Below are positions 3,816 to 10,559 of a stretch of DNA of 64,000 bases, one piece after another. Under the pieces are notes generated by a model, which saw only the letters and a list, made by a program, of their open reading frames with translations, was not told the origin of the DNA and searched no databases. The position numbers were made by a program, and so were the translations under genes. The stretch comes from Alphaproteobacteria bacterium. GTDB lineage: Bacteria; Pseudomonadota; Alphaproteobacteria; UBA8366. The number at the start of each line of letters is the position of its first letter. Positions within the stretch are counted from its first letter, which is position 1. Location: the NCBI GenBank assembly GCA_028281325.1, contig JANQKC010000009.1, positions 124,001 to 188,000 on the forward strand, written 5' to 3'.

Positions 3816-4760
3816 TTAACGGTACTCTTCCGGCAAGAACAACATGGAATCCTGTTCCTCGGCCACGGTCATGTGGCATTCGATACAGAATTTCATGTTC
3901 TTGGCGTTGCGCCCTTTGGTCTCGCCGAAGAACGATCCATTCGGCATGACCATGGCGTATTTCCAATCACCGCTCTCCGTGTTCCAGCCCGCGCCCATCT
4001 TGCGCATGACGAACAGCGGACCGACCCCGATCTTGCCGTCCGGCGTTACGGTGAAGCTGTCTTTAAACAAGTAGGACCCTTCCGGCATTCGGCCGGCCTT
4101 CTCGAACCTGCCATAGGCCCTCGCCGTTTCGTTGGCGTAGTTCTGGACAAATCGCCCCCCATGGGTCGCCGATTGATAGGCAACCTTGCTGTAGCGTTTG
4201 GTGCTGCTGTAGCTCGACGCTACGGCGATTCCGGACTTCGCATAGGCCGCCTTCATCTCGGTGATGATACAGTCATAGGCCGCTTGCGCTTCGGCTGCCG
4301 ACAGCTCTACCGGCGCGGCGCCACCGCACGGATTGCACGGGTTCTTGGCTGCACACGGGTTGCAGGCTTTTTTCGCCGCGCAAGGATTGCACAAGGCCGC
4401 CTTCTGCAGCCGCGGAACGGCGCAGCGCGCACTATAGGCTGCCGCCGCACCGGCACAGGGATTACACGGATTGGCGCCGCAGGGGTTGCAAGGATTCTTC
4501 GCCGCACAGGGATTGCACGCCCGCTTGGCCGCACACGGATTACATGGGTTTTTCGCCGCGCAAGGATTGCAGGCTTTCTTCGCGGCGCAAGGATTCGCCG
4601 CCCGTTTCGCCGCACATGGGTTCACGGCCTTTTTTACCGCGCAGGGGTTCGCCTGCGCCGTCTTGATGATGACCGAATCGCTGGCAATGGCTCCCGCCAC
4701 GCCAAGCGCTATCGCGACTGGAATAACGGTCGACGACAGCATTGTCCCCTTCGTTTGCAT
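3816..4760 (-). CDS. Cytochrome P460-family protein with Cys-rich NPC-repeat domain
   Basis: A 314-residue exported protein. The start at 4760 has GGAGGA five bases upstream, which beats an in-frame ATG 24 bases earlier. A signal peptide (about 1-37) ends in AQA. Residues 38-145 are a low-complexity domain with 15 NPC motifs, mostly as NPCAAKKAC, NPCAAKNPCNPC or NPCAAKRAC units. Residues 150-314 look like cytochrome P460: YDCIITEMKAAYAKSG, a central GSYLFKDSF/MRKMGAGWN region, and a c-type heme site CIECH at 292-296 near the end. P460 proteins are periplasmic heme enzymes with a Lys-heme cross-link that oxidise hydroxylamine or NO. The function of the NPC repeat is unknown to me; metal binding or disulfide scaffolding are guesses. 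A cytochrome c gene is transcribed divergently. Confidence 0.82.
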   Translation of the reverse strand: MQTKGTMLSSTVIPVAIALGVAGAIASDSVIIKTAQANPCAVKKAVNPCAAKRAANPCAAKKACNPCAAKNPCNPCAAKRACNPCAAKNPCNPCGANPCNPCAGAAAAYSARCAVPRLQKAALCNPCAAKKACNPCAAKNPCNPCGGAAPVELSAAEAQAAYDCIITEMKAAYAKSGIAVASSYSSTKRYSKVAYQSATHGGRFVQNYANETARAYGRFEKAGRMPEGSYLFKDSFTVTPDGKIGVGPLFVMRKMGAGWNTESGDWKYAMVMPNGSFFGETKGRNAKNMKFCIECHMTVAEEQDSMLFLPEEYR

Positions 4761-5059
4761 GAATTCCTCCGCCCAGTAGCCCATCCTTTCCGGGGCCGCC
4801 CCTTTTTATTTTTTGAATGAAGCCCCAATAGCCTACTGCCGATTGCCGTCGTCCATGCCTCAATCTTGGTCACGTGGCTGTGAGGCCGCGGCATTCCCCG
4901 TGCGCGGCCCTTCGCCGCACAAAAAGCGCTGGTGTTTCGCGCGAATTTAAAGATATTTGTTCGCGTTAAAGGAAAATTAGGTGGCTACCCTGATCCTATA
5001 GCCGCGGTCCTTGGGGCCCCGCCGCGGCGGTTCGATCGGGAACCAAACAGGAGAACGGA
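4761..5059. promoter_or_regulatory. Divergent promoter region between P460 and cytochrome c genes
   Basis: About 300 bases between two divergent heme-protein genes. It must contain both promoters. An AT-rich patch near 4945-4985 (gaatttaaagatatttg and nearby) is the best promoter candidate. I could not find an Fnr, NnrR or Fur palindrome. Confidence 0.45.
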
Positions 5060-5479
5060 ATGACACGCTCGATTACAGGACTGGTCGCCAGCGCGGCAAT
5101 TGCTGGTTTTATGGTCGCCAGCCCCGCCAGCGCGGCGGAAGGCGATGTTGCCAAAGGCGAGAGAACCTACAAAACGAAATGCAGAAGCTGCCATGCGGTC
5201 AAGCCGGATGTGAAACGGGTCGGCCCCTCCCTCTTCGCGATCATGGGACGCAAATGCGGCACCGCGCCGAAAACGCGTTTCTCGAAGGGCTATAAGGCCG
5301 CGTGCGAGGCGAAATCGTTCACCTGGGACGAGGCGTCCATCGACGCGTACATCAAGGACCCGGCCGGATACATGTCGGAGTTGGCCGGCAAGAAAGTCTC
5401 GTCGCCGATGCGCGCGGTGCGGATCAGGAAAGAGTCAGATCGCGTCAATATCATCGCGTATTTGAAAACACTCAAGTAA
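5060..5479 (+). CDS. Class I (c2-type) cytochrome c, periplasmic
   Basis: A 139-residue protein with a signal peptide (1-26, ending ASA-AEG) and one heme attachment site, CRSCH, at 41-45. The C-terminal part has SSPMRAV, with Met117 as probable axial ligand, and ends in the typical helix DRVNIIAYLKTLK. It should be a soluble periplasmic electron carrier. It faces the cytochrome P460 gene, so it is a plausible electron acceptor for it, but that is inference from position. A GGAG ribosome site lies a few bases before the ATG. Confidence 0.9.
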   Translation: MTRSITGLVASAAIAGFMVASPASAAEGDVAKGERTYKTKCRSCHAVKPDVKRVGPSLFAIMGRKCGTAPKTRFSKGYKAACEAKSFTWDEASIDAYIKDPAGYMSELAGKKVSSPMRAVRIRKESDRVNIIAYLKTLK

Positions 5480-8750: not shown

Positions 8751-10559
8751 ATGAGACCGCCCGAGGAAGAACTTAAGCATCTACTCCTCGCCCCCGAGCT
8801 TGCACTTCTAAAGCGGATACAGCGGCGGTGCGACGCGCTGCAGCTTCGCGTCGGCGACGATCCGGCGCTGAAGGATAGCGTGCGCGGCGTCATTGTCGAA
8901 GTGCTGCGCGAATCCGGCGTGCAGGAGCATGACCGCCTCGCCGGCGCGCTTGCCCCGTTGATCGTTTCCAGCATGCGCCAGGAAATCCGCAACTCGCGCG
9001 ACATGATGGTCGACGCGCTGTATCCCATCACCGGCCAGTTGGTAAAGGCCGCCGTCCGGAACGCGTTCAACGAACTCCTCGAAACCATCAATGCGAAACT
9101 CGACGAAGGATTCTCGGTCGATCGGTGGCGTGCCAAGGTCCAGTCGAAGATCACCGGCACGTCGGAAGCGGAAATACTGCTGCAGCGCAATCCGCCCTTC
9201 GATATCGAAGAAATCTATGTCATCCATCGTCCCACCGGCCTGTTGATCGACCGGGTGAGCGCGGTCGCCGCAAGCGGCGGCGAGAATGACGACAGCAACG
9301 CGGATGGCGTCGACAGCGAACTCGTCAGCGGGCTTCTGACCGCCATCATGGACTTCACCCGCGACGCCTTCAGCGACGAAAAAGGCGGTGATCTGCGGAC
9401 GCTCACCTTCGGCGAATCCCAACTCTTCCTGCGCACATCGGCAAACATCATTCTCGCCGCCAAAACCACCGGCACGCCGCCTCCCCGGTTCGAGGCCGCC
9501 CTGCAACGGGTTTTCCTGTCGGTCCTAGAGCGGTGGAACGAATTCCTCGCCTCGTTCGACGATGACGTGAAGGAAGATCAGAAAGCCGCCTTCAACGACG
9601 ACCTGGATGAACGGTTCCACGATCTGCTGCGGGCGCGGACGAAGAACTTCCGGGCCGGCGCGACACGGGCCTACGCGGTGATCGCGGCCGTCTTCCTGTT
9701 GATCGCCATCTGGCCGGCACTGTCGATCTACGACTACTATCGCGCCCAAGCCATCGAAGCCGACGCCCGCAGCGTCGTCGAGGGTCAAGCCGCCCTGGCC
9801 GGCTATCCGATCGACGTGCGATACGACGGTGACGAGCAAAGATTGGTGGTGACCGGCCTGTTGCCCAGCCCCGCGGCGAAAGAGGGCCTGGTCTCCGGCC
9901 TTGCCGACCGGCTTCCCGATGTCGAAAACGATCTTCGACTCGCAACGCTGCACCAGGCACGCGGCGATGAAATCGCCCGCAACCTGGGCACGGTGTTGAC
10001 TGCGGAAGTGGCCAAGCTGAAGGCATCGTTGCAACAGGGAATGATCGACCTGGAAACCCAGACGCAGGCAAATGACGCCGTGTTGGCCGAACGGATATCC
10101 AACTCGGTTGCGGGACTGGACGCGAAGTTCGATCGTTTCGAGAAAGCCCTATCGCAGCGCATCGAAAACCAGATCGCAACCGCGCTTATCCCCTCGCCGA
10201 CCAAGGTGCTGAGCGACTGGGTCCAAACCAATGCGGTTTTCCTGAGCGATGAAACGGAATTTCGCTACCCGGATTGGGCCAAGGCGCTTCTCCGGGAGCT
10301 GGCGGCGCTGATAAAGTCGACTCCCGATGATCTTCGGATCCGCGTGGTGGGTTATACCGACGATACCGGGACCGACCGCCTGAACGAGCGTTTGTCCCTG
10401 GAACGGGCGGAGAGAGTGGCAGGGATGTTGACGGCGCTCGGCGTCCCGGAAAACCGCCTGATCGCGGTAGGCCGGGCGTCGGAAAAATCAATCGGCGCGG
10501 GCGAGAACGCGACCTACAATAGACGGGTCGAGTTCGAGATCGTGACCCTGCCCGAATAG
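8751..10559 (+). CDS. Membrane-anchored protein with C-terminal OmpA (peptidoglycan-binding) domain
   Basis: A 602-residue protein. Residues 1-300 look cytoplasmic and contain MVDALYPITGQLVKAAVRNA and IEEIYVIHRPTGLLIDRV, segments I recall from a family of large proteins annotated only as OmpA family. One transmembrane helix lies at about 306-324 (AYAVIAAVFLLIAIWPALS). A BON-like segment follows at about 345-400 (GYPIDVRYDGDEQRLVVTGL), then coiled coil. The C-terminal OmpA domain (about 510-600) keeps the diaminopimelate-contacting Asp (VVGYTDDTG) and Arg (NRRVEFEI). The layout suits a bridge from cytoplasm to cell wall. It could let the cytoplasmic coiled-coil and GTPase sense or be positioned by peptidoglycan. 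Confidence 0.85.
   Translation: MRPPEEELKHLLLAPELALLKRIQRRCDALQLRVGDDPALKDSVRGVIVEVLRESGVQEHDRLAGALAPLIVSSMRQEIRNSRDMMVDALYPITGQLVKAAVRNAFNELLETINAKLDEGFSVDRWRAKVQSKITGTSEAEILLQRNPPFDIEEIYVIHRPTGLLIDRVSAVAASGGENDDSNADGVDSELVSGLLTAIMDFTRDAFSDEKGGDLRTLTFGESQLFLRTSANIILAAKTTGTPPPRFEAALQRVFLSVLERWNEFLASFDDDVKEDQKAAFNDDLDERFHDLLRARTKNFRAGATRAYAVIAAVFLLIAIWPALSIYDYYRAQAIEADARSVVEGQAALAGYPIDVRYDGDEQRLVVTGLLPSPAAKEGLVSGLADRLPDVENDLRLATLHQARGDEIARNLGTVLTAEVAKLKASLQQGMIDLETQTQANDAVLAERISNSVAGLDAKFDRFEKALSQRIENQIATALIPSPTKVLSDWVQTNAVFLSDETEFRYPDWAKALLRELAALIKSTPDDLRIRVVGYTDDTGTDRLNERLSLERAERVAGMLTALGVPENRLIAVGRASEKSIGAGENATYNRRVEFEIVTLPE

Follow-up and report, generated by a model that had tools for sequence, protein, structure and literature searches.

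The gene at positions 3816-4760 on the reverse strand of the window (the whole 64,000-nucleotide stretch of alphaproteobacterial DNA that was analyzed) raises the question of what a dense run of NPC motifs is doing on a heme protein of the cytochrome P460 type. P460 enzymes are studied for making N2O or NO from hydroxylamine. The translation is a putatively exported protein of 314 amino acids, hereafter called NPC-P460, and the features of the locus are as follows.

3816-4760, reverse strand: NPC-P460 gene, 314 amino acids, with a GGAGG ribosome-binding site at 4766-4770 (forward-strand coordinates)
4650-4760, reverse strand: signal peptide region, residues 1-37, judged by eye from the sequence, ending in TAQA directly ahead of the first NPC
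4455-4649, reverse strand: NPC array 1, residues 38-102, 11 NPC motifs, from the sequence; predicted disordered
4407-4424, reverse strand: conserved spacer CAVPRL, residues 113-118, alignment consensus C-[VIAFLY]-[VI]-P-[RS]-[LVIM]; modelled as a confident fold
4326-4388, reverse strand: NPC array 2, residues 125-145, 4 NPC motifs, following the spacer strand and preceding the first long P460 helix, from sequence and model
3819-4304, reverse strand: cytochrome P460/c'-beta domain, residues 153-314, from Pfam, Foldseek, VIA and the model
4062-4064, reverse strand: Lys233, aligning to Lys70 of N. europaea P460, the residue cross-linked to heme; unvaried across alignments A1 and A3
3873-3887, reverse strand: CIECH heme c attachment motif, residues 292-296, from the sequence
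5060-5479, forward strand: small secreted class I cytochrome c (Pfam), divergent from NPC-P460 and of a recurrent neighbor type

The start codon at 4760 was preferred over the ATG at 4784 because the GGAGG lies upstream of the former. A preliminary description had placed 15 NPC motifs at residues 38-145, ahead of a P460 domain with CIECH, and the translation confirmed this; its estimate of about 20 cysteines in the repeat also agreed with the sequence, since 20 of the protein's 23 cysteines fall in residues 38-147. The same description treated the motifs as one regular repeat. The number of motifs stood, but they form two arrays parted by CAVPRL. Motifs begin at residues 38, 47, 56, 65, 71, 74, 83, 89, 92, 97, 100, 125, 134, 140 and 143, and the gaps of 3, 5, 6 or 9 residues within the arrays indicate that units such as NPCAAKNPCNPC and NPCAAKKAC are intermixed. 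When the array stretch was shuffled in 20,000 trials, a mean of 0.41 NPC and a maximum of 4 were obtained, compared with the 15 observed. Among the 15 NPC codon triplets 8 spellings occur; no triplet departs from the others at codon positions 1 and 2, and third positions are mixed (C6/T9; C4/A2/T4/G5; C8/T7). The array was detected at the DNA level by Tandem Repeats Finder with matches of just 70-78%, a consequence of largely synonymous variation in the NPC codons. Since the first two codon positions are fixed and the third is mixed, the array is no recent product of slippage; it is an old protein repeat with its motif under purifying selection. In an AlphaFold2 model built from 27 sequences, pLDDT was below 50 over residues 1-99 and the arrays, which are thus predicted to be disordered, and above 90 along most of the heme domain.

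The heme domain was assigned to the P460 superfamily as previously proposed. Pfam Cytochrome_P460 (PF16694) scored 29.5 bits for NPC-P460, above its cut-off of 27, and was matched (E ≤0.01) in 25 of 27 aligned orthologs. The best Foldseek and VIA matches to the heme-domain model were cytochromes c'-beta, a group that includes NeCP-beta, McCP-beta and TtCP-beta: Foldseek returned 7s5o, a cytochrome c'-beta, at E 4e-5, and VIA returned 7ead (c'-beta) at Z 9.5 (123 aligned, rmsd 3.4), followed by 9hrk at Z 9.4 (128 aligned, rmsd 3.3); McP460, at Z 9.4, was tied with 7ead, and NeP460 scored Z 6.5. All top 17 VIA entries were P460 or c'-beta proteins. NPC-P460 shares with the cytochromes P460 (NeP460, McP460, NsP460) the fold, the CxxCH heme c motif, which is invariant in A1 and A3, and a lysine at the cross-link position, and differs from them in having NPC arrays, one of them within the fold. 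The cross-linking lysine, for which an alignment had been suggested, is present: Lys233 aligns without gaps to Lys70 of NeP460, the NeP460 query having been compared against 2je2. This lysine distinguishes NPC-P460 from the c'-beta proteins, which have Met or Phe at that position (PMC11928373, Table 2), as 7s5o does with Met79 in the alignment. The heme domain therefore probably forms the lysine cross-link, judging by sequence. Gly258 falls at the position of the distal carboxylate in the sequence alignment to 7s5o. This position is Glu96 in NeP460, Ala109 in NeCP-beta and Gly82 in McCP-beta, and TtCP-beta also has Gly there. NPC-P460 thus probably has no distal carboxylate and probably does not oxidize hydroxylamine. 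The glycine would bring it closer to NsP460, which has the lysine, lacks the carboxylate and shows no NH2OH oxidation (PMC11928373). A branch with the cross-link lysine and apparently without the catalytic carboxylate may do something else.

Relatives of NPC-P460 were found in 47 of 114 related genomes. Across 84,980 species genomes, 387 relatives were found, of which the best 80 were kept; the titles of these 80 name Alphaproteobacteria, its orders or families, or unplaced Proteobacteria, and include Rhodospirillaceae, Kiloniellaceae, Pelagibius, Sneathiella and many MAGs. NPC arrays were observed in most of the best 80 loci, with 4-43 NPC in 75 proteins. The preliminary description would have been refuted by a repeat lacking in orthologs or a heme domain of another family; instead the array is conserved and the P460/c'-beta fold was matched. 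The commonest layout in relatives is array 1, a C-(V/I)-(V/I)-P-R-L spacer, array 2 and P460. NPC-free paralogs read HFRVERPADLTGADALxIY without a gap and have no array 2, which therefore looks inserted after the first strand and ahead of the first long helix. In another NPC-P460 (L187:3972-5066(+)) the second array occupies a different P460 loop, after the KDSF/Lys strand and before GPLF. No NPC-P460 was found on plasmids when these were searched. Arrays reaching 43 NPC appear to be absent from the 2025 review of the P460 superfamily, in which a keyword search for alphaproteobacteria, repeat and cysteine-rich found none of the three.

The preliminary description had suggested searching for repeat proteins of this kind and their partners, and the search showed that NPC arrays are a family of exported proteins in their own right, with a recurrent partner and a second heme fusion. 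Most NPC proteins have no P460 domain, and small ones of about 77-150 amino acids are common across genomes. The window's genome has a second NPC protein of 93 amino acids (L033:8982-9275(-), contig C20 of G000 at about 18.9 kb), whose gene is flanked by those of a histidine kinase and an MsrP-like molybdoenzyme. Relatives of this locus have the order RR, HK, NPC, two uncharacterized Cys proteins, SCO1/SenC, MsrP. Two secreted Cys-containing proteins without a Pfam match (L057:9509-9937 and 9945-10490; WCYITEIMYAEGTAHHQCALWC and EEWGLPEEKTARFEAKVVDVLCELSGDCP) were found as a pair repeatedly downstream of small NPC genes.

Clustering of neighbors brought out the recurrent partner: it is cytoplasmic and matches DUF6969 in Pfam at 281.7 bits. 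Genome-level co-occurrence in a sample of the class was used as the unbiased test of the link. NPC arrays were defined by a pattern of three closely spaced NPC codon triplets, and a genome was scored positive with at least 3 hits, a threshold picked after the counts were seen; genomes with 1-2 hits were mostly chance repeats, and a reversed-pattern control was nearly empty. Among 387 alphaproteobacterial genomes, NPC arrays were present in 53, DUF6969 in 96 and both in 48. DUF6969 was thus present in 48/53 genomes with arrays and in 48/334 without them, for an odds ratio of 57 and a p of 1.4e-28, a value that overstates certainty because genomes are not independent. One of the 53 positives, G251, resembles a non-coding chance repeat; it was kept in, which weakens rather than strengthens the association. 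Co-occurrence was seen in 26 of 29 families of this sample, and the family count and gene adjacency are stronger arguments for the link than p. Among the 114 relatives, DUF6969 was present in 28 of 30 NPC genomes and 15 of 84 others (table 28/2/15/69, p 1.3e-13). Contig breaks notwithstanding, DUF6969 adjoins NPC-P460 in about 28-29 of the best 80 loci; it is not adjacent in the window's own genome.

Within the class sample, the NPC pattern is lacking from about half of the genomes that have DUF6969. Several DUF6969 genes without NPC lie near other exported Cys repeats, namely a GCCAAEGC lipoprotein (L194), GCSGC (L161), SPCAP (L163) and KKPCAA (L204), and in several neighborhoods examined (e.g. 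L184, L185, L197) no Cys-repeat gene was found near DUF6969. The protein has no apparent signal peptide, and its invariant motifs include the His clusters QYYYHxH and EHGHFH as well as a TNRWVT-like motif. Its model (pLDDT 91.6) found no PDB relative at Foldseek E <0.5, and the best VIA match was Z 2.9, an absence of match that does not amount to a new fold. The literature searched yielded no paper on NPCAAK or DUF6969, and the NPC-DUF6969 system appears to be new relative to the literature that could be searched.

Outside Alphaproteobacteria, DUF6969 lies 11-75 bp from NPC genes. In two such loci (L200, L201) two Sulf_transp genes are followed by a 77-amino-acid NPC gene, DUF6969 after 11/12 bp and a secreted rhodanese after about 14 bp; a third locus from the same class (L203) has the order Sulf_transp, DUF6969, rhodanese. 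YeeE-like SoxT proteins are described as importing sulfur (PMC11582611). In another class (L198), NPC arrays stand on both sides of a small SoxA/TsdA-like cytochrome c domain (CATCH), 75 bp from DUF6969. This domain scored 39.4 bits for PF21342 SoxA/TsdA and 31.4 bits for TIGR04484 SoxA, the latter under its cut-off, and a relative 56% identical was found in a second genus (L206). NPC arrays have therefore been joined on a second occasion to a c-type heme, one unrelated to P460. SoxYZ/SoxA/TsdA systems likewise bring together periplasmic cysteines and c-type heme; the P460 domain, in contrast, is unrelated to SoxA.

Other neighbors recur as well. A secreted PF03781 (FGE-like) protein, scoring 134.9 bits against a cut-off of 23.3, lies beside NPC-P460 in 29 of the best 80 loci, mostly divergent; FGE, EgtB, OvoA and PvdO belong to the PF03781 family. 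The canonical FGE catalytic Cys pair has the context GGSxxC-x4-C; the conserved motif of the neighbor, GGSWDDxGCGxCRPAARH, is unlike it in lacking the canonical pair spacing in GGSWDDxGCGxC. The window's genome has no FGE-like protein of this kind. Comparison of loci L158 and L159 showed its gene between those for a universal stress protein and DUF6969 in a genome of the same genus (G001). An FGE-type CxPxR motif in the spacer was considered and rejected, the spacer being C-x-x-P-R and conserved even where the FGE-like protein is missing. Cytochromes c occur near NPC-P460 in about 20 of the best 80 loci, including the window, where the product of 5060-5479(+) is the probable electron partner. 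SUF genes are found directly beside NPC-P460 in Kiloniellaceae/Pelagibius and, as an independent case, in L202, and MsrB is adjacent in 7 loci. Within 5 kb of 81 DUF6969 places, a mixed set partly selected for NPC or P460 genes that does not give unbiased rates, rhodanese was found at 17 and Sulf_transp at 8, so that sulfur neighbors are a minority. ZnuABC was linked in two loci only (L056, L059) and was set aside as a zinc lead.

What was observed comprises the arrays and their conservation, co-occurrence and linkage with DUF6969, two kinds of c-type heme attachment and recurrent neighbors (secreted rhodanese, a YeeE/YedE-type sulfur transporter, the SUF operon, the FGE-like protein, cytochrome c and methionine sulfoxide reductases). 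Our tentative reading, given a probability of roughly 0.4, is that NPC arrays are exported, disordered Cys arrays of a periplasmic sulfur/redox thiol system, beside a c-type heme and with DUF6969 as partner. DUF6969 would act on the arrays or chaperone them prior to export. The arrays would then offer many thiols for periplasmic sulfur/thiol chemistry and could carry or buffer sulfane sulfur, or supply a pool of thiols that can be renewed. Through the nearby cytochrome c, electrons might pass between the c-type heme and either this thiol chemistry or N-oxides. Sulfane-sulfur handling is slightly favored because of the associations with rhodanese, the sulfur transporter, SUF and SoxA/TsdA. Weighing against the reading are the small share of DUF6969 places with sulfur neighbors, the DUF6969 genomes that lack the NPC pattern, copper-like neighbors (SCO1/SenC and the cupredoxin-like protein) together with ZnuABC, the denitrification genes nirS, NosR and ApbE near NPC-P460 in one lineage, and, for the window's genome, the separation of DUF6969 from NPC-P460 and the lack of the FGE-like protein.

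Soft-metal binding would rank close behind the sulfur/redox thiol role and may be nearly as likely. It is possible, though doubtful, that the arrays are periplasmic soft-metal buffers, with Cu(I) the likeliest metal, matured before export by DUF6969 in the way that MNIO matures captophorins/bufferins, with the heme protein alongside. Twenty closely spaced cysteines on a flexible chain would suit this role. Standalone NPC genes also lie near SCO1/SenC, ZnuA, a mercuric-reductase-like disulfide reductase and a cupredoxin-like protein under the Pfam cut-off, and the neighboring two-component system resembles metal or envelope-stress sensors. Modification of exported Cys-rich peptides by a cytoplasmic enzyme is a known copper strategy (PMC12668002). 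Both systems have exported Cys-rich chains and a conserved partner without a signal peptide; modification of the NPC chain by that partner would be a further, inferred likeness. However, the NPC motif differs from those of captophorins/bufferins, and no related PDB fold was found for DUF6969. An MNIO/bufferin system as such was rejected, there being no match to MNIO (PF05114) in the window's genome. Moreover, no consistently linked copper efflux or copper-sensor gene was observed, and the tightest operons outside the class join NPC-DUF6969 to rhodanese and sulfur transport genes.

An N-oxide system appears improbable. Here a Lys-cross-linked P460 heme would bind NO or N-oxides, while the arrays trap or exchange NO as S-nitrosothiol and shield Fe-S proteins. 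Proteins of the P460/c'-beta superfamily do bind NO (PMC11928373), the SUF operons for Fe-S assembly (in two lineages) and MsrB would fit such a role, and one lineage has nirS, NosR and ApbE at a distance of 5-8 kb. The nir linkage is limited to that lineage, however, and most NPC proteins have no P460 domain, for which a SoxA/TsdA-like heme can substitute. Still less probable is a structural role, in which disulfide-linked arrays would act as spacers or would anchor the heme domain, either at the cell surface or within the periplasm. Low-complexity Cys repeats could cross-link heavily, and array length varies widely, from 4 to 43 NPC. Yet the picture of a simple N-terminal tether is incomplete, since array 2 breaks the P460 fold and the array of L187 sits in another heme-domain loop, both odd for a stalk, and the DUF6969 partner and the standalone NPC proteins would be left unexplained. 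A functionless repeat artefact or neutral slippage expansion, suggested by the DNA-level tandem repeats and variable copy number, is scarcely tenable, being ruled out as slippage by the codon pattern and by conservation over many genera and several classes, and opposed by the strong DUF6969 linkage.

A further-reaching reading is one that we consider rather unlikely as a whole: DUF6969 would be a new family of cytoplasmic His-rich peptide-modifying metalloenzymes that convert many cysteines per exported NPC chain. Once modified, the arrays would work with c-type hemes of the P460 or SoxA/TsdA-like kind, either joined to them or serving them, and the whole would make up a periplasmic system for sulfur or metal that was not known before. 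The two-gene rule of an exported NPC protein plus DUF6969 is robust and testable, and it gives a concrete partner to a domain of unknown function that is present in about a quarter of the sampled alphaproteobacterial genomes and in other classes. Experimental access is offered by the cultured genera Pelagibius and Sneathiella.

Three minor observations were also made. The window's genome encodes a 79-amino-acid exported protein of KPC/SPC/NPC repeats (L034:9202-9438(+), contig C36 of G000 at about 291 kb; CKPCKAKAACKPCSPCKAK). Near NPC genes, an exported protein (TQTGCQFLEPEG...) that is weakly cupredoxin-like, under the Pfam cut-off, was found at L116:4325-4834(+) and L155:6047-6541(+). Two P460-domain proteins of 734 and 495 amino acids (L175:4753-6954(-) and L176:5441-6925(-)), with a lipoprotein-like start and no NPC arrays, adjoin FGE-like and DUF6969 genes, and the heme motif of the second is CKTCN instead of CxxCH.
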